Shown here in pieces: positions 7,465 through 24,929 of a DNA stretch of 64,000 nucleotides. The stretch lies in NCBI RefSeq assembly GCF_001305595.1, contig NZ_CP012401.1:1623001-1687000 (forward strand), read 5' to 3'. Within the stretch, counting starts at the first letter, position 1, and every line of letters begins with the position of its first letter. The position numbers and the translations under genes are program-made. The stretch is from Azospirillum thiophilum. GTDB lineage: Bacteria; Pseudomonadota; Alphaproteobacteria; Azospirillales; Azospirillaceae. The notes under the pieces were generated by a model that had not been told where the DNA came from, did not search any database, and saw only the letters and a program-made list of their open reading frames with translations.

Positions 7465-9698
<2,234 letters not shown>

Positions 9699-10574: not shown

Positions 10575-11021
10575 TCAGAATTCATCGCCGGAGAGGTCGC
10601 CGACCACCTGTTGCGCAGCGCGCAGCAGGGCGGGATTGGGCTGCTGCGGCATATCGTCGTATTCACCATCCGGGTCGCCGCGGTCGGGCATGGCGCGGTG
10701 CTTCAGCTCCCGCGCAGCCTCGATCAGCAGATGGGCGAGGCGCTGGTCCGGCAAGGCCTGCACCAGCGCCCGCATCTCGGCGTTCGACAATGCCGCCGGA
10801 TCGAAGGCGGGCGGAGGAGGGGGCGGTGGTGGCGGCGCGAGCGGCAGGGTGGCGGCGGCCACCAAGGCCGGGGTCTTCGGCAAGGGGGCAGCCCCACGCA
10901 CCATGTCGACCGCGACCTGTGCCGCCATGACAGCCGCAGTGCCTGCGGCCCGCGGACGGCGCGGCTTGCGCGTCGGCTCCGTTACCGGCAGGTCGTCGAA
11001 CAGAAGCCGTTGGACGCTCAT
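10575..11021 (-). CDS. Hypothetical protein with polyproline linker
   Basis: I do not recognise this 148-residue protein. It starts MSVQRLLFDDLPVTEP, then has a basic segment (TRKPRRPRAAG), an alanine-rich stretch, an uninterrupted run of nine prolines near residues 63-71, and a helical, charged C-terminal half (LSNAEMRALVQALPDQRLAHLLIEAARELKH). The acidic end (GEYDDMPQ, VGDLSGDEF) is typical of a soluble protein. It has no membrane segment or signal peptide. It is monocistronic, and reading frame and codon use look genuine. The function is unknown. Confidence 0.55.
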   Translation of the reverse strand: MSVQRLLFDDLPVTEPTRKPRRPRAAGTAAVMAAQVAVDMVRGAAPLPKTPALVAAATLPLAPPPPPPPPPAFDPAALSNAEMRALVQALPDQRLAHLLIEAARELKHRAMPDRGDPDGEYDDMPQQPNPALLRAAQQVVGDLSGDEF

Positions 11022-16947: not shown

Positions 16948-17335
16948 CGTCGTGCTCCGTTCTTGTCTCTGTTCTTTTTGCCCGCCCGTCCGCAGGTTGC
17001 GGCAGGGCATCACCCAATCATATGGGGATGCGGGAGCGTGGTTGCCCTAGCCCAGAATGCCTAGGCAGGTTTTCCGGATCGGGCCAGGGATCCGGACGCG
17101 TGAATTCGGATTTGGGGCATTCGGTTGTTGCGGATGGGGCAGCGGCAGTGCCGACAGTTCGCGCTGGACGCGGGTCCGGTGCTTGTGAATGATATTTCTT
17201 GCGACCGTTGACGAAGGCGGTTCCGCCTTGTTCCTTCGGTTGTGAAGCGATTGTCCGGACGCGTCATTCGGGCCGTATGGTAGGAGGGTGTTCGCGCTGA
17301 TGGTTGCGCTTCTTGGCGATGGTTGGGGCAGGGCG
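16948..17335. other. Intergenic region with one perfect hairpin
   Basis: No convincing gene is seen in these 388 bases between the divergent exported-protein and acetyltransferase genes. TCCGGATC (17073-17080) pairs perfectly with GATCCGGA (17089-17096) over an 8-base loop. Promoters for both neighbours must lie here, but I could not pick convincing boxes. Confidence 0.5.
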
Positions 17336-17905
17336 ATGATGGCCTTCACGGATGAACCTGTGTTGGAGACGGCTCGGCTGATCCTGCGTCCCACCCGGGC
17401 GGAGGACTTCGACGCCTGGGCGGCGATGATGGCAGATCCGGAAGCCACCGAATTCATTGGCGGCCTGCAATCGCGCCCGATCGCCTGGCGTGGGTTCCTG
17501 TCCATGGCCGGCGCCTGGTCGATCCAGGGCTTCGCCATGTTCTCGGTCATCGAGAGGGAAACCGGACGCTGGGTCGGTCGCGTCGGTCCCTGGGTGCCTG
17601 AAGGCTGGCCTGGGCCGGAAGTCGGCTGGGCGGTCATGCGCGACTGCTGGGGCCAAGGCTATGCGGTGGAAAGCGCGACAGCCGCCATCGACTGGGTGTT
17701 CGATCGTCTCGGCTGGACCGAGGTCATCCACACCATCCACCCCCGCAACATCGCCTCGCAGGCTGTTGCGCGCAAGTTGGGGGCGGAAATGCGTGGCACC
17801 ACTCTGCTGCCCGAGCCGGTGAATCCGCCGGAGGCGGATGTCTGGCACCAGACGCGCGATGAGTGGCGTGCGCGGCGTCTCAAAGCGGGTGTCGGCAGGT
17901 TCTGA
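17336..17905 (+). CDS. GNAT-family N-acetyltransferase (RimJ/RimL-like)
   Basis: A 189-residue acetyltransferase using acetyl-CoA. It has the RimJ/RimL-type opening LETARLILRPTRAEDFDAW, then EVGWAVMRDCWGQGYAVESA, which carries the acetyl-CoA pyrophosphate-binding Q/R-x2-G-x-A-type loop (QGYAVE), and the final HPRNIASQAVARKLG strand-helix typical of the family. The start at 17336 (ATGATG) is preferred, since the preceding in-frame residues do not fit the fold. Substrate unknown. It is transcribed toward the RiPP cluster but ends 160 bases before it, so co-regulation is not indicated. Confidence 0.85.
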   Translation: MMAFTDEPVLETARLILRPTRAEDFDAWAAMMADPEATEFIGGLQSRPIAWRGFLSMAGAWSIQGFAMFSVIERETGRWVGRVGPWVPEGWPGPEVGWAVMRDCWGQGYAVESATAAIDWVFDRLGWTEVIHTIHPRNIASQAVARKLGAEMRGTTLLPEPVNPPEADVWHQTRDEWRARRLKAGVGRF

Positions 17906-18067: not shown

Positions 18068-18526
18068 ATGGCACTGACGACTGCATTCGACTTGATAAAG
18101 CGTCTCGCCACCGACGGCGAATTCCGCAAACGTTTGAACAGCGAGGGTTCCCAAGGTAAGCGTGCCCTTCTGGCAACCGAAGGATTTGCGGATCTCGCAG
18201 CCGACGACGTCCGTAAGGCTGTGCCGCCGGCCATGCAGCATCCGCTTGCCGCGGTTCGGGCCGACCAAGCCGTGACCGGCATTGCGGCCATGTCCGTGGC
18301 AGGGATCAGCGGCCCGGCCGACACCGCGGGGATCAGTGGTCCGGCCGACACTGCAGGCATCAGCGGGCCGGCTGCTACTGCGGCCATCAGCGTGCCGGCC
18401 ATCGCGTCGGCTGGTTTCAGCGCCCCGGCCTTTGCCGCCCCGGCCTTTGCGGCTCCTGCTTTCAGTGCTCCTGCTTTCGGCGCCGTTTTGGGTGCCAAGG
18501 CGTCGGCTGACGTAGTCCCTGCCTGA
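18068..18526 (+). CDS. Nif11-like leader RiPP precursor, short repetitive tail (precursor 1)
   Basis: A 152-residue peptide that I read as a RiPP precursor. The first about 50 residues (MALTTAFDLIKRLATDGEFR and on) resemble the Nif11/N11P leader fold. The segment LIKRLATDGEFR is identical in the second precursor at 18767. The tail is compositionally different: GISGPADTA occurs three times in tandem (18302-18382, the third copy altered), followed by alternating PAF motifs (FSAPAFAAPAFAAPAFSAPA). There is no Cys and little charge. The ATG at 18068 follows GGGAG by six bases; the upstream GTG at 17996 is not needed. A hairpin with a T-tract follows, so this gene is separately transcribed. The modifying enzymes are presumably those at 20312-24503. 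Confidence 0.78.
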   Translation: MALTTAFDLIKRLATDGEFRKRLNSEGSQGKRALLATEGFADLAADDVRKAVPPAMQHPLAAVRADQAVTGIAAMSVAGISGPADTAGISGPADTAGISGPAATAAISVPAIASAGFSAPAFAAPAFAAPAFSAPAFGAVLGAKASADVVPA

Positions 18527-18552
18527 AGCCGGTCACGTTCGCCTGTCGACGG

Positions 18553-18603
18553 CGGTGCATGGCTCCAGCGGCCAACGGCAACCGGGCCATGCACCGGGTT
18601 TTT
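18553..18603 (+). terminator. Intrinsic terminator after precursor 1
   Basis: CGGTGCATGGC (18553-18563) pairs with GCCATGCACCG (18586-18596), followed by GGTTTTT. It separates precursor 1 from precursor 2. Confidence 0.8.
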
Positions 18604-18766
18604 CCATAATCTTGTTGCCGTGACGCAGCATTAAATTTCGATGGCAATCGCACTTTCTTGTGCATTTTCACTAGAAATTTTACGGATTGCGTATGCTATT
18701 GGTTTAGCTGTTGCTTCCCATTCGCAGCAATCCTAATGGCAGACCGATTGCAGGAGGGGCCCTTAA

Positions 18767-20197
18767 ATGGCCAACGAACAGGCACTCGCCCTCATTAAGC
18801 GTCTTGCTACCGACGGCGAATTCCGTAATCAATTGAACGCACTCGATATTTCGGGCAAGCAGGCGCTGCTGGCCCAGGGTGGGTTCGGCGGTGTCAGCGC
18901 CGAGCATGTTCGCGCCGCTGCCGCGGACGCCTTCAAGCACCTGACCAGTCAGGAAGGCGGACTGGACAGTGGCCTCGCTGTCGAGTCGATCGCAACCGCC
19001 GCCTCGGCCTCCGCGACCTCGGCTTCGGCACAGTCCGCGTCTGCCACCTCCGCTTCCGCAACGTCTGCTTCTGCCAGCTCCGCCTCCGCCCAGTCGGCAT
19101 CGGCCTTCTCGGCGTCCGCGTCCGCTTCGGCGTTCCCGGCACCCGGCTTCTCGGCTTCCGCCCAGTCGGCTGCGGCGCAGTCGGCCTCTGCTACTTCGGC
19201 TGCGGCGCAGTCGGCTTCGGCGGTCCCGGCACCGGCCTTCTCCGCATCGGCGCAATCCGCATCGGCGACCTCGGCTGCGGCGCAGTCGGCGTCCGCGGTT
19301 CCGGCGCCTGCCTTCTCTGCGGTTGCGGCTCCGGCGTCGGCCTTCTCGGCTGCGGCGCAGTCGGCGTCCGCGGTTCCGGCGCCTGCCTTCTCTGCGGTTG
19401 CGGCTCCGGCGCCTGCCTTCTCTGCGGTTGCGGCTCCGGCGTCGGCCTTCTCGGCTGCGGCGCAGTCGGCGTCCGCGGTTCCGGCGCCTGCCTTCTCTGC
19501 GGTTGCGGCTCCGGCGTCGGCCTTCTCGGCTGCGGCGCAGTCGGCATCCGCGGTTCCGGCGCCTGCCTTCTCTGCGGTTGCGGCTCCGGCGTCGGCCTTC
19601 TCGGCTGCGGCGCAGTCGGCGTCCGCGGTTCCGGCGCCTGCCTTCTCTGCGGTTGCGGCTCCGGCGTCGGCCTTCTCGGCTGCGGCGCAGTCGGCGTCCG
19701 CGGTTCCGGCGCCTGCCTTCTCTGCGGTTGCGGCTCCGGCATCGGCCTTCTCGGCTGCGGCGCAGTCGGCGTCCGCGGTTCCGGCGCCTGCCTTCTCTGC
19801 GGTTGCGGCTCCGGCGTCGGCCTTCTCGGCTGCGGCGCAGTCGGCGTCCGCGGTTCCGGCGCCTGCCTTCTCTGCGGTTGCGGCTCCGGCGTCGGCCTTC
19901 TCGGCTGCGGCGCAGTCGGTGTCCGCGGTTCCGGCGCCTGCCTTCTCGGCGGTTGCCGCTCCGGCGTCGGCCTTCTCTGCTGCGGCGCAGTCGGCGTCCG
20001 CGGTCCCGAACCCGGCCTTCTCGGCGTCTGCCTTCTCGGCGTCCGCACAGTCGGCTTCGGGGATGTCCGCGACGTCTGCCTCTGCGACGTCCGCTGCTGC
20101 CCAGTCGGCGTCGGCGACCCCCGCCGCCCCCGCGGCTTCGGCATCCGCATCGCCTGCTCCGGCAGCGCCGAGCGACGATCCCACGGCCGAGGCTTGA
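18767..20197 (+). CDS. Nif11-like leader RiPP precursor with giant tandem-repeat core (precursor 2)
   Basis: A 476-residue protein with an N11P-like leader (MANEQALALIKRLATDGEFR, residues 1-20, and on to about 60). A possible GG boundary follows in TSQEGGLDSG, near residue 65. The remaining about 400 residues are almost only Ala, Ser, Pro, Phe, Val, Gln and Thr, with no Cys. An early zone of SATSASAQSASA-type repeats gives way to nine copies of a 25-residue unit starting SAVPAPAFSAV and ending SAFSAAAQSA (one copy has 10 extra residues). The end is acidic (APSDDPTAEA). AGGAGG sits eight bases before the ATG. It is 114 bases upstream of ycaO with no clear terminator. The core could carry many identical modification sites. 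An unmodified structural or surface protein is the alternative. Confidence 0.8.
   Translation: MANEQALALIKRLATDGEFRNQLNALDISGKQALLAQGGFGGVSAEHVRAAAADAFKHLTSQEGGLDSGLAVESIATAASASATSASAQSASATSASATSASASSASAQSASAFSASASASAFPAPGFSASAQSAAAQSASATSAAAQSASAVPAPAFSASAQSASATSAAAQSASAVPAPAFSAVAAPASAFSAAAQSASAVPAPAFSAVAAPAPAFSAVAAPASAFSAAAQSASAVPAPAFSAVAAPASAFSAAAQSASAVPAPAFSAVAAPASAFSAAAQSASAVPAPAFSAVAAPASAFSAAAQSASAVPAPAFSAVAAPASAFSAAAQSASAVPAPAFSAVAAPASAFSAAAQSASAVPAPAFSAVAAPASAFSAAAQSVSAVPAPAFSAVAAPASAFSAAAQSASAVPNPAFSASAFSASAQSASGMSATSASATSAAAQSASATPAAPAASASASPAPAAPSDDPTAEA
19292..19996 (+). repeat. 75-bp tandem repeat, nine units, in the precursor 2 core
   Basis: Units begin TCCGCGGTTCCGGCGCC at 19292, 19367, 19472, 19547, 19622, 19697, 19772, 19847 and 19922, with the next boundary at 19997. 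Spacing is exactly 75 bases except for the second unit (105 bases, an internal duplication of a 30-base piece). Units differ by only a few bases, so the array is recent or kept homogeneous by recombination. All steps are multiples of three. Confidence 0.95.
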
Positions 20198-20311
20198 TCG
20201 GGTTGGGGCCGATCTTTTCTCTTTCGAGAGAGGGCCGGCCCCGCCCCCTGCCTTGCAGCACAGCGACCACCCCACCCGAACCGGCCGGAGCAGCGAGTCC
20301 TGACCCATCCC

Positions 20312-21646
20312 ATGGCTGACAGCGCATCTCCCGAAACCGTCTATCCGGAGTTTCCCGGCATCCGCCTGGGCGACACCGTCCACCGCGCCGCCAAGCGCTT
20401 CTTCATCGGTACGCACCGCACGGCAACGCCGGAAGAAACCCTGGCCCGCATCTCGCCCCATTTCGCCAGTTGCGGCATCACGCGGCTGGCCGACGTGACC
20501 GGGCTCGACCGTCTGGGCATCCATACGGTCATTGGGCACCGCCCCAACAGCCCGACCCTGTCCGGCAGCGCCGGCAAGGGCTTCAGCCTGGCAGCGGCCA
20601 CCGTTTCTGCCGCAATGGAGGCGATCGAGTTCCATCACGCCGAACATCTGCGGCTGCCTCATATCGAGGCGACCTGGAACGACCTGCCTGCCGATGGGCG
20701 CATCCCGGTGGACCGGCTGGCGGGAACCAAGCACGGCTCTTTCCGCCCCGACCGTCCGGAGATCTGGACCTGGGGCTGGGATCTGATGGGCGGGCGTCCG
20801 GTTGCCGCCCCCTGGACGGCGGTCGGGCTGCACAGCATGCCGCCGGGTACCAAGCCGGGCGCGCGCAGCTTCTACGCCATGGGTACCAACGGGCTGGCCA
20901 GCGGCAACCACATCCTGGAAGCCGTCGCCTCCGGCCTCTACGAGGTGATCGAGCGCGATTCCGTCGCTTGCTGGCGCTATGCCGGCGACAAGCTGCGCTG
21001 GCCGACGCCGCGGGTCGACCTGGACAGTGTCGACGCGCCCACCGTGCGCGACCTGCTGCACCGGTTCGAGCTGGCCGGCATCCGTCCGCTGCTGTTCGAC
21101 GTGACCACCGACCTCGGCGTGCCCAGCTACATGGCGATCGTCTATGACCGCGAGATGCGCAAGACCGGCATGAACCGCGGGTACGGCAGCCACCTGGAAC
21201 CGGCCGTCGCCATGTGCCGCGCCTTGACCGAAGCGGTGCAGTCGCGTCTCGTGCTGATCGCCGGATCGCGCGACGATTTTTTCCGCCGCGACCTGATCCG
21301 TAACCAGAACGCCGACGGCAACGCGGAAATCGCGGCGTTGGAAGCGACGCCGATCACCATCGACGGCCGCCGCCATGTCAACCACGCCACCCCGAGCTTC
21401 GAGGGTGACATCACGGTCCTGCTGACCGTGCTGCGCCGTGCCGGGATCGAACAGGCGCTGGTCTTCGACCTGACCCTCCCGGAAATCGGCATTCCGGTGG
21501 TGCGGCTGCTCGTGCCGGGGCTGGAGGGGTACCAGTTCGACTTCTACACTCCGGGGGCCCGGCCGCTGGCCTTTACCGAGGCGCTGCAGGCGCATGCCTC
21601 TCACGCGCCGCAGGCGCATCCGGGCCAGATGGGGTCGGTCGCATGA
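20312..21646 (+). CDS. ycaO: YcaO-domain peptide-modifying enzyme
   Basis: A 444-residue YcaO-family enzyme. YcaO proteins use ATP to activate peptide backbone amides. They form azolines, or thioamides when paired with TfuA. The ATP-site signatures are visible as SAAMEAIEFHHAE (the S-x3-E-x2-E element, about residue 97), EAVASGLYEVIERD and RALTEAVQSRL. The C-terminus (SHAPQAHPGQMGSVA) lacks the PxPxP tail of azoline-forming YcaOs. There is no fused E1-like or leader-binding domain. Its stop overlaps the tfuA ATG (ATGA), so translation is coupled. It lies directly behind the repeat precursor, which is the obvious substrate. An azoline-forming role is less likely given TfuA and the Cys-free substrate. 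Confidence 0.92.
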   Translation: MADSASPETVYPEFPGIRLGDTVHRAAKRFFIGTHRTATPEETLARISPHFASCGITRLADVTGLDRLGIHTVIGHRPNSPTLSGSAGKGFSLAAATVSAAMEAIEFHHAEHLRLPHIEATWNDLPADGRIPVDRLAGTKHGSFRPDRPEIWTWGWDLMGGRPVAAPWTAVGLHSMPPGTKPGARSFYAMGTNGLASGNHILEAVASGLYEVIERDSVACWRYAGDKLRWPTPRVDLDSVDAPTVRDLLHRFELAGIRPLLFDVTTDLGVPSYMAIVYDREMRKTGMNRGYGSHLEPAVAMCRALTEAVQSRLVLIAGSRDDFFRRDLIRNQNADGNAEIAALEATPITIDGRRHVNHATPSFEGDITVLLTVLRRAGIEQALVFDLTLPEIGIPVVRLLVPGLEGYQFDFYTPGARPLAFTEALQAHASHAPQAHPGQMGSVA

Positions 21647-23055
21647 AGATCTGTGTGTTCCTGGGTCCGACCATGCCGGCGGAGGATGCCCGCGCAATCC
21701 TGCCGGGCGCGGTCTATCTGGCGCCGGCTGCGCAGGCCGATATCATCAGCGCCATGACCATCCATCGGCCCGACGTGATCGCCCTGATCGATGGGGTGTT
21801 CGGCCAGTCGCTGTCGGTGTGGCACAAGGAAATCCTGTTCGCCCTGCACAAGGGGGTGGCGGTCTACGGCGCCTCCAGCATGGGGGCGCTGCGGGCGGCC
21901 GAGTGCCATCCCTTCGGCATGGTGCCTGTGGGCGAGGTGGCGCGCGGCTATGTCGACGGCCGGCTGACCGGCGACGACGAGGTGGCGCTGGCCCATGCCG
22001 GCCCGGAGGACGGCTACTTTCCGCTCTCCGAGCCGCTGGTGAATCTGCGCGCCAGCATGGCCGCCACGCTGGCCGCCGGGGTGGTGGACAAGGCCGTGCA
22101 CGACCGCGTGATCGCCGCGGCCAAGGCCCTCTACTTCACCGAGCGGACCCGGGACCGCGTCTTCGCCGAAGCCGGATTGACTGCGGAGGAGACGGAGCGG
22201 CTGGAGCGTTTCCTGGAAACCGGCTCGGTCGACCAGAAGCGTCGCGATGCAGAGGCTCTGCTAGGCCATCTCGCCAGCCTCATCACGCCGCCGCGGCTGG
22301 CCCCCTTCGACTTCAATGCGTCCCATTACTTCGATGTGTTGTACGAGCGCGACCGCCGTGTCTGTCATGGCGGCAACACTGTGCCGCTGTCCGAGATCGC
22401 CACCCACGCTGCCCTGCACCGGCCGGACTTCGCGGAGATCAACAACGCCGCGCTCGGCCGGCTGCTGATCCGCCAGTTCGCGGAGGTGATGGGGGTCTCG
22501 GTGGACGAGACGGCGGTGCGGACCGAGACGCAACGCTTTTGCGCGATGCGCGGGCTCGGCGGGGCCGGGGCGCTGGCCGACTGGTGCCGCCGCAACGACC
22601 TGACCGACGCCGAGTTCTCCGAATTGATGACCGAACTGGCCATCGAACGGGCGATGCGGCTGTGGTTGATCCCCCGCCGGTTCCTGGCGCGCACGACCAA
22701 GCCGGTGCTGAACGAGTTGCGTCTGCGCGGCCTCTACGAGTCGACCGCCGAAGAGGCGGCGCTGATCGAACGCGTGATGGAGCTGCATTTCGCCGACGCC
22801 AGCCGTCAGCCGACGAACTCGGTGGAGGAACTGATCGCCGACCATCTCGGCAGCACCGCTTGCCGGATGGATGCGGCGGCCGACGTATGGGCGTATGAAT
22901 ATGGCTTCAAGGATCTGCTCGACTTGCGCATCGACCTGATGCGGGCCAAGCAGGTGCGAGACCTGTTCCGCCAGTTGGCGGGGGAGGCGGAAGCGGCGCT
23001 GGCGTCCGACCCGGCGCCGGCGGAACCCGTGCCGGAAGAGGAGATGCAGACGTGA
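21643..23055 (+). CDS. tfuA: TfuA-domain protein with long C-terminal extension
   Basis: A 470-residue protein whose first about 200 residues are a TfuA core: KICVFLGPTMP, VIALIDGVFGQSLSVWHKEIL, GVAVYGASSMGALRAAEC and DDEVALAHAGPEDG. TfuA works with YcaO in backbone thioamidation and has been linked to releasing sulfide from a ThiS thiocarboxylate for YcaO. Known archaeal TfuA proteins are about half this length; the extra C-terminal part here is helical and charged, with no domain I recognise. It may bind the leader or the YcaO. It overlaps ycaO by four bases and the next gene by four bases. No signal peptide. Confidence 0.9.
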   Translation: MKICVFLGPTMPAEDARAILPGAVYLAPAAQADIISAMTIHRPDVIALIDGVFGQSLSVWHKEILFALHKGVAVYGASSMGALRAAECHPFGMVPVGEVARGYVDGRLTGDDEVALAHAGPEDGYFPLSEPLVNLRASMAATLAAGVVDKAVHDRVIAAAKALYFTERTRDRVFAEAGLTAEETERLERFLETGSVDQKRRDAEALLGHLASLITPPRLAPFDFNASHYFDVLYERDRRVCHGGNTVPLSEIATHAALHRPDFAEINNAALGRLLIRQFAEVMGVSVDETAVRTETQRFCAMRGLGGAGALADWCRRNDLTDAEFSELMTELAIERAMRLWLIPRRFLARTTKPVLNELRLRGLYESTAEEAALIERVMELHFADASRQPTNSVEELIADHLGSTACRMDAAADVWAYEYGFKDLLDLRIDLMRAKQVRDLFRQLAGEAEAALASDPAPAEPVPEEEMQT

Positions 23056-23336
23056 CCAACGCAGAAGTGATCATCCGCGTGCCGACTCCGCTGCGCGGCT
23101 TCGTCGGCGGCAGCGATCAGGTGACGGTTCCCGGTACCACGGTGCGCGAAGCCCTGGCGGCTTTGACCGCCGGGCAGGAGGCGTTCAGAGACCGCTTGTT
23201 CACCGCGGAAGGCGATCTGCGCCGCTTCGTGAACGTCTATCTCGGCCGCGATGACGTGCGACGGCTGGGTGGATTGGAGGCGGCGCTGCCGGCCGGTGCC
23301 ACCCTGACCCTGATGGTCGCCCTGGCGGGCGGTTGA
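23052..23336 (+). CDS. ThiS/MoaD-like ubiquitin-fold sulfur carrier
   Basis: A 94-residue beta-grasp protein ending in VALAGG. The terminal Gly-Gly is the site that ThiF/MoeB-type enzymes adenylate and convert to a thiocarboxylate. Internal features fit MoaD/ThiS: VIIRVPTPLRGFVGG, VPGTTVREALAAL and FVNVYLGRDDVRRLGGLEAAL. The GTG start overlaps the tfuA stop. Its position between tfuA and a rhodanese-ThiF gene strongly suggests it is the dedicated sulfur donor of this pathway. A housekeeping molybdopterin or thiamin role is less likely, since no moa or thi genes are nearby. Confidence 0.9.
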   Translation: MTNAEVIIRVPTPLRGFVGGSDQVTVPGTTVREALAALTAGQEAFRDRLFTAEGDLRRFVNVYLGRDDVRRLGGLEAALPAGATLTLMVALAGG

Positions 23337-23348
23337 GGAGTTCGCGTG

Positions 23349-24503
23349 ATGAGCCTGAAGGACCGTCGTCTGTCCGAGCTGCGCGCCCGCATTCCGGAAG
23401 TCACCGCGGCCGACGCGCTCGCTCTGCAGCGTGGCGGTGCTCTGCTGGTCGATGTCCGTGAGGACGAGGAGACGGTGACCGGCACTCCCGTCGGGGCGCT
23501 GCGCCTGCCGCGCGGTTTCCTGGAATTGCGGATCGAGGACAAGGCGTCCGATCCGGCACGCACCCTGCTGCTGATGTGCGCCGGCGGCACCCGGTCGCTG
23601 TTCGCGGCCGAGGATCTGCTGCGGCTGGGCTATGGCGACGTGCGGTCGGTGGCCGGCGGCTTCTCCGCCTGGAAGGCGGCGGGCCTGCCGGTGGAGGTGC
23701 CGCCGCAACTCGATGCCGCCCAGCGTGAGCGCTACCGCCGCCACCTGACCATGCCCGAGGTGGGAGAGGTAGGTCAGCACAGGCTGCTGCGTAGCCGTGT
23801 CGCCCTGATCGGTGCGGGCGGGCTCGGCTCGCCCATCGCGCTGTATCTGGCCGCCGCCGGGGTGGGGCATCTGACCCTGATCGACGACGACCGGGTCGAG
23901 CGCAGCAACCTCCAGCGCCAGATCCTGCATGCCGAAAGCCGGCTGGGACAGCGCAAGGTCGAGAGCGGGCGCGCCGCCCTGCTCGACCTCAACCCGACCA
24001 TCGAAGTGGTGAGCCACGACACGCGGTTGGAGGCCGCCAACGTGCTCGACCTTTTGGCCGGTCACGACGTGGTGGTCGACGGGTCCGACAATCTGCCGAC
24101 GCGCTATCTGGTCAACGACGCCTGCCTGCGGCTGGGCGTGCCCAACGTCTACGGCGCCATCTTCCGGTTCGAAGGACAGGTGTCGGTGTTCGGCGGCGCC
24201 GCGGGCGTGCGTCCGTGCTACCGTTGCCTGTTTCCGGAACCGCCGCCGGCCGAATATGCCCCGTCCTGCGCCGAGGCTGGCGTATTGGGCGTTCTGCCCG
24301 GCGTGATCGGTACCATCATGGCGGCCGAGACGATCAAGCTGCTGTTGGGGTTGGGCGAACCTCTGGCTGGCCGTCTGCTGCTCTATGACGGACTGCGCGG
24401 CGAGTTCAACGAGATCGCGGTGCCGGTCGATCCCGACTGTCCGTCCTGTTCGCATGGTGCGCGGCCGGAACTGAGCGATATCGCGGCGGTATGCGGTGTC
24501 TGA
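23349..24503 (+). CDS. Rhodanese-ThiF/MoeB fusion, sulfur-carrier activating enzyme
   Basis: A 384-residue fusion. Residues about 10-118 are a rhodanese domain with active-site C77 in CAGGTR, able to carry a persulfide. Residues about 125-370 are a ThiF/MoeB E1-like domain: nucleotide loop GAGGLGS (155-161), NLQRQILH, DGSDNLPTRYLVND, the catalytic-region C307 (SCAEAGVLG), and zinc pairs C290/C293 and C364/C367. The usual Uba4/MOCS3 order is ThiF first, rhodanese last; here it is reversed. It should adenylate the GG end of the preceding carrier and transfer sulfur to it. GAGGAG precedes the ATG at 23349. A terminator follows. Confidence 0.92.
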   Translation: MSLKDRRLSELRARIPEVTAADALALQRGGALLVDVREDEETVTGTPVGALRLPRGFLELRIEDKASDPARTLLLMCAGGTRSLFAAEDLLRLGYGDVRSVAGGFSAWKAAGLPVEVPPQLDAAQRERYRRHLTMPEVGEVGQHRLLRSRVALIGAGGLGSPIALYLAAAGVGHLTLIDDDRVERSNLQRQILHAESRLGQRKVESGRAALLDLNPTIEVVSHDTRLEAANVLDLLAGHDVVVDGSDNLPTRYLVNDACLRLGVPNVYGAIFRFEGQVSVFGGAAGVRPCYRCLFPEPPPAEYAPSCAEAGVLGVLPGVIGTIMAAETIKLLLGLGEPLAGRLLLYDGLRGEFNEIAVPVDPDCPSCSHGARPELSDIAAVCGV

Positions 24504-24520
24504 CAGAGGAAAGCGGAAGG

Positions 24521-24549
24521 GCGCCGCCTCGTGTCAGGCGGCGCTCTTT
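24521..24549 (+). terminator. Terminator of the YcaO-TfuA operon
   Basis: GCGCCGCCT (24521-24529), loop CGTGTC, AGGCGGCGC (24536-24544), then TCTTTT. It overlaps the end of the convergent receiver gene and marks the end of the RiPP operon. Confidence 0.8.
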
Positions 24550-24929
24550 TGTTCGATGACGCTGTGCACGAGTTTCTTCAGGGCGACAAAATCGACCGGC
24601 TTGGTCACCAGTTCGGCCGCACCGATGTCCAGTGCGCGCCGGCGGTTTTCCGTGTCACCGTAGGCGGTGACCATGATGACCGGAACATGCGGCACTTTTG
24701 CACGCAGGCATTGCAGAAGATCAAGGCCGCTCATGCCCGGCATGTTTATGTCGCTAAGGACAAGAACAGCCTCCGGTTGTAGCCCAGTGTTCAGGCTTTC
24801 AAGGGCTTTCTCCGCCGACGCGGCGAAATGAAGCACGAGTTCACCACGGCGCAACTCGGCGCGGAAACGCTGGCGGAAGAGATCCTCGATATCCGGTTCG
24901 TCGTCGACGACGAGGATTCCCAGGGTCAT
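24534..24929 (-). CDS. Single-domain response regulator
   Basis: A 131-residue receiver. It has the acidic pocket LVVDDEPDIED, phosphoacceptor D in LSDINMPGMSG, VTAYGD for the switch Thr, and TKPVDF with the conserved Lys. There is no DNA-binding domain. The ATG overlaps the stop of the upstream PAS histidine kinase, its obvious phosphodonor. The sequence is close to the receiver domain of the hybrid at 26724 (both have INMPGM and KP-DF), suggesting duplication. The gene ends inside the terminator of the RiPP operon. Confidence 0.88.
   Translation of the reverse strand: MTLGILVVDDEPDIEDLFRQRFRAELRRGELVLHFAASAEKALESLNTGLQPEAVLVLSDINMPGMSGLDLLQCLRAKVPHVPVIMVTAYGDTENRRRALDIGAAELVTKPVDFVALKKLVHSVIEQKSAA

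Follow-up and report, generated by a model that had tools for sequence, protein, structure and literature searches.

A cluster of six genes on the plus strand of a 64,000-nucleotide stretch of the Azospirillum thiophilum genome (contig NZ_CP012401.1, positions 1,623,001 to 1,687,000; the window) probably encodes a pathway in which YcaO, TfuA, a ThiS-family sulfur carrier and a rhodanese-ThiF fusion put backbone thioamides into the repeat tails of two adjacent precursor proteins, likely with sulfur from the cluster's own carrier. A thioamidation system had been proposed in a preliminary description of the locus; co-occurrence across genomes, gene order and conserved active-site residues support the proposal, and the chemistry itself is predicted.

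The two precursor genes stand in tandem ahead of the genes of the enzymes. Precursor 1 (18068..18526, 152 residues) has a leader of approximately residues 1-60 and a 90-residue tail rich in Ala, Gly, Pro and Ser, with 9- and 5-residue repeats. The leader of precursor 2 (18767..20197, 476 residues) comprises about residues 1-78 (18767-19000) and is followed by a tail of pentads, arranged largely in 25-residue units. Neither protein contains Cys. Next come the genes for YcaO (20312..21646, 444 residues), TfuA (21643..23055, 470 residues), a ThiS/CysO-like carrier with the C-terminus AGG (23052..23336, 94 residues) and the rhodanese-ThiF fusion of MoeB type, recognized by its domain matches (23349..24503). 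The YcaO and TfuA genes overlap by ATGA at 21643-21646 and the TfuA and carrier genes by GTGA at 23052-23055. The carrier stop is separated by 12 bases from the ATG of the fusion at 23349, and an in-frame GTG one codon earlier, at 23346, is an alternative start. The gene order, strand, overlaps, 12-base gap and AGG ending are all as first described.

The distribution of the genes was determined in 45 Azospirillum genomes, where a long TfuA was counted at E < 1e-200. The leader family was found in 24 genomes and the long TfuA in exactly the same 24; neither occurs in the other 21. The precursors and the YcaO-TfuA genes had been expected to occur together, rare pairing having been named beforehand as the outcome that would count against the proposal, and the counts bear the expectation out. 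Identical sets of 24 would arise by chance with a probability of about 3e-13 if the genomes were independent, a value that is only a guide since they are related. A close carrier is present in the same 24 genomes, with one weak match (36%) in another, and the fusion in 22 of the 24, the copy in genome G030 being cut by the contig start. In 15 of the 24, leader and TfuA are encoded on one strand of a single contig, no more than about 7 kb apart. They are split in nine (G013, G016, G020, G022, G026, G030, G033, G035 and G042); the tail is cut by a contig end or a run of N in eight of these, and the leader of the ninth is 372 bases from the contig end. Among 17 Azospirillum loci (L001-L017), the same response regulator and kinases lie downstream in 15, the same glyS-glyQ upstream in seven and both in six, the names glyS, glyQ and kinase being our reading of the sequence. 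Locus L011 differs downstream and L017 upstream; the other loci without a flank lack it owing to contig ends or runs of N. The leader was not found in 37 other genomes of the family, with at most 73 candidates scored per genome, and the order adds no genome beyond the family. None of 353 plasmid records with a TfuA match reached an identity of at least 60%.

The YcaO protein matches PF02624 across the whole domain (E 2.6e-76). Residues Gly194-Asn199, Glu211/Glu214/Arg215 and Arg303/Glu307/Gln310/Arg312, which we take to be the ATP-binding motifs, are kept in at least 75 of 80 aligned YcaO proteins, and the motifs appear intact. In the first motif another residue takes the place of the Arg (EAIEF), a feature of many of the TfuA-linked YcaO proteins among the 80. 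TfuA matches PF07812 (E 1.4e-41). Liu et al. reportedly described YcaO-TfuA thioamidation of McrA in methanogens in 2021, along with a Ser-Lys pair in TfuA; this pair is present in the window protein as Ser79 and Lys199, both invariant. Residues 1-216 resemble the TfuA fold of 6xp8, a short protein of 217 residues, and residues of about 228-454 form an extra helical domain. The 50 VIA-align matches listed all span only the N-terminal part, and the extra domain gave no Pfam match above cut-off. Its counterparts in relatives showed weak Pfam matches (Trigger_C, 0.034, in L019; DUF6683, 0.0076, and SurA_N, 0.23, in L037). Likewise, TIGR04500, a peptide maturation family related to PpiC, weakly matched the TfuA relatives at L022 (9e-8), L019 (9.8e-5), L018 (5.1e-4) and L037 (0.0045); the window TfuA gave no TIGR04500 match.

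Sulfur carriers such as CysO and ThiS work with activating enzymes of the MoeB/MoeZ type. The window carrier matches PF02597 (ThiS; E 8.4e-6, 26.7 bits against a cut-off of 22.5) and, over nearly its whole length, the structures 4n6e and 3dwg, presumably CysO. The fusion contains rhodanese (PF00581, 2.3e-11) and ThiF (PF00899, 1.4e-77) domains, exceeds the cut-off of the MoeB model NF006444 (576 bits against 449) and has MoeB, ThiF and Uba4 as its best solved relatives. Numbered from the GTG at 23346, it has the rhodanese loop CAGGTR at Cys78, Cys pairs at 291/294 and 365/368, and Cys308. The two proteins appear to form a sulfur-carrier and activating-enzyme pair, the carrier ending in GG and the adenylyltransferase being joined to a sulfurtransferase domain. 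Known CysO/ThiS pairs with MoeB/MoeZ likewise combine a GG-ending carrier, an adenylyltransferase and a rhodanese, but here the rhodanese is N-terminal and the carrier gene belongs to the ycaO-tfuA operon. The route had been called self-contained. The cluster does encode its own carrier and activating enzyme; however, the term is too strong, as two of the 24 cluster genomes are without a close fusion and a second MoeB-like ThiF (51-56% identity) is found in all 45 genomes. This second ThiF could replace a missing fusion.

By homology, Cys78 of the rhodanese domain would be loaded with sulfur as a persulfide. The C-terminal Gly of the carrier would be adenylated by the ThiF domain, which would also accept the persulfide sulfur, and a thiocarboxylate would result. 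TfuA, with Ser79 and Lys199, would bind YcaO and hydrolyze the thiocarboxylate to sulfide. YcaO, guided by the leader, perhaps via the extra C-terminal domain of TfuA, would then phosphorylate chosen amide oxygens in the repeats, and sulfur would replace them. Near-identical sites recur many times along each tail, so that a chain would be expected to receive several to many thioamides. These steps are modeled on studied relatives (PMC13063428 and PMC5589413, for which, as for all papers given here by PMC number, statements refer to passages of the text) and on the work reported by Liu et al.

The pairing of leader and long TfuA was followed beyond the genus in the best 80 of 256 TfuA loci from 84,980 species genomes. 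At 19 of the 80 the match to TfuA runs from residue 1 to at least residue 440. Ten of these loci have the leader, and upstream of the remaining nine there is a contig end or a run of N. Two of the ten lie outside Azospirillum, in the myxobacterium Minicystis rosea (L018) and in a Gemmatimonadota metagenome-assembled genome (MAG; L019). The window leader alone matches their leaders (E 1.6e-9 and 8e-7, respectively), which were included in the later leader profile. The pairing therefore extends beyond the genus, and the leader accompanies conservation of TfuA over its full length; the extra TfuA domain may bind the leader. At the M. rosea locus (L018:7410-10392), a precursor with a Nif11 leader and a short Thr-rich tail is followed by YcaO and the long TfuA, with no carrier or ThiF match at the locus. 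The Gemmatimonadota locus (L019:2788-17250) has two Nif11-leader precursors with a GG motif, two YcaO proteins, a long TfuA and LanM, together with a divergent carrier and a ThiF-rhodanese protein whose domains are in the opposite order to those of the window fusion; it is possibly a thioamide-lanthipeptide hybrid cluster. In a Legionellales MAG (L033:6428-10614) the genes for carrier, ThiF, YcaO and TfuA are consecutive and the leader was not found there, so the sulfur cassette occurs without the leader too.

The leaders of the two window precursors have LIKRLATDGEFR in common, and 14 of 15 leaders align without gaps over the first 58 alignment columns. In the AlphaFold2 model of precursor 2 the leader (residues 1-60) is helical and confidently predicted, and the tail is unstructured. 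This leader is conserved, the proportion of synonymous differences (pS) from two relatives being 0.46-0.52 and that of nonsynonymous differences (pN) 0.09-0.10. The leaders had been described as N11P-like. A weak likeness to Nif11 was indeed found, 12 of the 15 matching PF07862 (best 3.5e-4) and 11 matching TIGR03798 (best 1.5e-4) at E up to 1, but both window leaders are under the curated cut-offs. Since they stay below, although the homologous L018 and L019 leaders pass the Nif11-leader cut-off, they are called Nif11-like and not filed as members. The IniB N-terminal model (IniB_NTERM) also matches seven of the 15 leaders (best E 0.0088), as well as the Minicystis and Gemmatimonadota leaders, in all cases below its cut-off. 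IniB is another protein with a low-complexity tail, and a distant link of the leaders to its N-terminal domain is possible.

The tails are repeats rich in Ala, Ser, Pro and Gly. Thirty-four distinct precursors were found and 32 tails tabulated; Ala makes up 25-49% of 31 of them, the remaining one being frame-slipped. Tandem periods are mostly multiples of five residues, and periods of 9, 18, 29 or 44 also occur. The unit of precursor 2 is [S/P]-A-x-A-y, with Ala in 65/77 and 62/76 cells at two of the five positions and slips of the register near the start and end of the tail. Its DNA contains a 75-bp tandem array (19400..20026, plus strand) of 8.4 copies with 97% matches. Repeat copies differ chiefly at third codon positions, a bias that is slight in L017 (142, 138, 178), and pN/pS is 0.57 between precursor 2 units 25 codons apart. 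Both results fit selection on this reading frame, and the long antisense frames across the repeats are therefore read as side effects of composition. That the repeats are Cys-free, as first described, holds for both window proteins but not for some relatives: among the 32 tails, two contain 4 and 6 Cys, respectively, and a further two contain a single Cys each. When 31 of the 34 precursors were compared, tails under 40 residues and the Arg-rich frame-slipped one having been dropped, they fell into 15 tail families, and the tails change between species. A pentapeptide-repeat (Rfr) fold was considered for the five-residue register and rejected, since Pfam returned nothing up to E 0.1 and the tail was modeled with low confidence. 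The fold search with the precursor model gave no match at E <= 0.001. A search of 5.8 billion proteins with precursor 1, limited to candidates of 0.55-1.75 times its length, returned four matches; the two with a source name were both from Azospirillum. Draft assemblies are broken or N-joined inside the repeat tails at L100, L107, L094, L095, L101, L103, L104 and L106, so that the precursor is cut short in those records and easily overlooked in genome mining. The tail of A. cavernae precursor 2 (L013:5395-6771) slips from an Ala/Gly-rich into an Arg-rich frame, through either an assembly indel or a real frameshift.

Several observations weigh against thioamidation of the repeat tails. The nearest curated model of YcaO is TIGR03266, for McrA-glycine thioamidation, which it matches at 209 bits with a cut-off of 365, and TfuA is also under the cut-off of the McrA-specific model. 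At the other 61 of the best 80 TfuA loci no leader was found in the fetched DNA, which was short for some; TfuA and YcaO thus generally do not need the leader. Genomes G029 and G044 are without the fusion, and in A. soli (L017, which has the same precursor as G029 and is apparently the same genome) the flanking response-regulator gene directly follows the carrier gene. The 24/21 split is uncorrected for relatedness and may stem from few gains or losses; moreover, loci L001-L017 and the 45 genomes overlap and hence are not separate evidence. The failure of the window leaders to reach the Nif11 cut-offs belongs here as well: that of precursor 2 scores 15.8 bits with PF07862 (cut-off 23.8) and that of precursor 1 gave no TIGR03798 match. 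Among 17 trimmed leaders only the Gemmatimonadota one has a GG cleavage motif in context (position 70); in the Azospirillum leaders, GG pairs occur at internal positions (17, 38, 41) or at 64, where the motif context is missing. C39-type exporters use a GG site, and the genome has five C39 peptidase matches, all away from the cluster. Finally, no motif common to all 15 tail families that would point to a target residue was found among the 31 tails.

The possibility was considered that a thioamide forms in every repeat unit, giving a polymer of 150-500 residues with tens of backbone sulfurs and a leader gripped by the second domain of TfuA. In the absence of a cleavage site, such a polymer would be used whole and might bind soft metals or form a protease-proof coat; we regard this as rather unlikely. 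It is improbable that the enzymes thioamidate another substrate, be it a housekeeping protein, like the uL16 thioamidated by EcYcaO, or a short hidden peptide, the repeat proteins being mere traveling neighbors. Although a single ancestral linkage could yield the co-occurrence, the same leader family stands beside YcaO and a long TfuA in two other phyla, and the figures within the genus are 24/24 against 0/21. Intact proteins can serve as YcaO substrates (PMC13063428, PMC5589413), and precursor 1, which is followed by a strong hairpin (18553..18601), may not share the enzyme transcript; however, the leader of precursor 2 is conserved while the tails change between species. There is also only a small chance that YcaO introduces azolines or another backbone change into the tails (oxazoline from Ser/Thr, or amidine), with the sulfur genes serving elsewhere. 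YcaO enzymes make several products and the window protein matches the SagD model at 130 bits, but its gene is overlapped by tfuA, and TfuA-linked YcaO proteins make thioamides in PMC13174530, PMC6511847 and PMC5589413. An azoline-type partner, E1-like or ocin-ThiF, was not seen: the ThiF is of MoeB type with an N-terminal rhodanese, and no azoline-partner model is among the matches listed for the fusion (25 of 39 NCBIfam families). Ser accounts for about 24% of the precursor 2 tail but only 3-9% of the tails of L009b, L011, L017, L010b and L110 (Thr is 21% in L110). That the tails are low-complexity structural or surface proteins with a merely leader-like N-terminal domain, any thioamidation being minor, is very improbable, because the IniB_NTERM matches and the long, Ala/Ser/Gly/Pro-rich, predicted disordered tails that favor it leave the strict co-occurrence with YcaO, TfuA and the carrier unexplained, and the L018 and L019 relatives have short, precursor-like tails.

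Thioamidation of the repeat tails can be compared with known systems. The thiovarsolins of Streptomyces varsoviensis (PMC6511847) likewise depend on YcaO and TfuA, a precursor with repeating cores and no cluster-specific protease. Their five repeats give acetylated APR tripeptides with a Pro-Arg thioamide in an actinobacterium, whereas the Azospirillum locus, which is proteobacterial, has tails built of other units and reaching about 430 residues, a predicted folded Nif11-like leader and a dedicated carrier and activating enzyme. Moreover, the window tails have no APR/GPR units, and no ATP-grasp, amidinotransferase or heme-oxygenase-like genes are among the six. Malit et al. (2021; PMC8120280) predicted Nif11-type precursors near YcaO-TfuA, with MoeB annotated in the legend of Figure 4. 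Those precursors, which are linked to lanthionine enzymes, possess a GG cleavage motif, unlike the Azospirillum ones with their long repeat tails and no GG site, and the word Azospirillum does not occur in the main text. In the methanogen McrA system (PMC5589413) ycaO and tfuA also overlap, and thiF, moaD, moeB or rhodanese genes are nearby in several archaea, but the substrate is a large enzyme modified at one Gly, with no leader and a short TfuA. Azospirillum sp. B510 has other precursors (NHLP), an unfused docking protein and a cyclodehydratase, and no TfuA is named in those passages (PMC2887384). A 2026 preprint (PMC13174530) distinguishes four YcaO-TfuA classes of ribosomally synthesized and post-translationally modified peptides (thioviridamide-like, thiovarsolins, thiopeptides and chimeric lanthipeptides) plus its own; judging from its passages, none combines a folded leader with long repeat tails.

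The preliminary description knew of no characterized product with this precursor type. The literature searched agrees, with no paper on both Azospirillum and TfuA among the matches listed, but the 2021 work had already predicted Nif11-type precursors in the neighborhood of YcaO-TfuA (PMC8120280), and repeating precursors occur in the thiovarsolins (PMC6511847). These two features and sulfur-carrier genes beside ycaO-tfuA were thus known separately. What looks new is the combination, together with the long Cys-free tails, the missing GG site, the two-domain TfuA tied to the leader and the Azospirillum distribution, none of which was found in the literature searched (subscription journals lie mostly outside it).

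Other features of the locus were also evaluated. The gene set ends in a strong hairpin with a T-rich tail between convergent genes (24512..24553, no strand assigned); folding gave -31.5 kcal/mol with a z-score of -6.2, in agreement with the terminator first described. The hairpin 3' of precursor 1, on the plus strand, is terminator-like with a T run (-30.3 kcal/mol, z-score -3.1, 2 of 200 shuffles as good), and a weak one with a T-rich tail between precursor 2 and ycaO (20196..20214, plus strand; z-score -0.45) is no better than shuffles. The terminator scan found three terminator-like sites against a mean of 4.5 in shuffles, so only the folding result carries weight. The sigma-70 promoter scan and the Rfam search gave no match. 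The direct flanks are GNAT and response regulator genes, neither of them a protease or an exporter. The GNAT gene directly upstream (17288-17905) was weighed as a candidate modifying enzyme and dropped: close copies (E < 1e-70) occur in 20 of the 24 cluster genomes, two of these 20 having the copy and the leader on different contigs, and also in 3 of the 21 genomes without the leader. Elsewhere in the genome another ycaO-tfuA pair encodes a short TfuA of 254 residues (L148:6449-8843; G000:C4:108448-110842), and a short TfuA match of this kind is present in 44 of the 45 genomes. A regulator-like gene, of CRP type as read from its sequence, lies downstream of the pair, a small open reading frame just upstream of ycaO (8601-8843) could encode its precursor, and a C39 peptidase match (C4:98198) is about 10 kb away.

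If thioamidation of the repeat tails is true, the cluster likely represents a new class of thioamide natural product. The operon, with its own carrier and activating enzyme and two genomes without the latter, is a ready test of how TfuA is supplied with sulfur, and the loci lacking the fusion (G029, G044 and L017 after position 10703) form a natural test of whether the MoeB-like ThiF charges the carrier. It also lends itself to asking about the function of the extra TfuA domain and the number of backbone thioamides that a single chain can hold. As 24 of the 45 genomes of this plant-associated genus have the set while the tails diversify, it probably has a useful role there.

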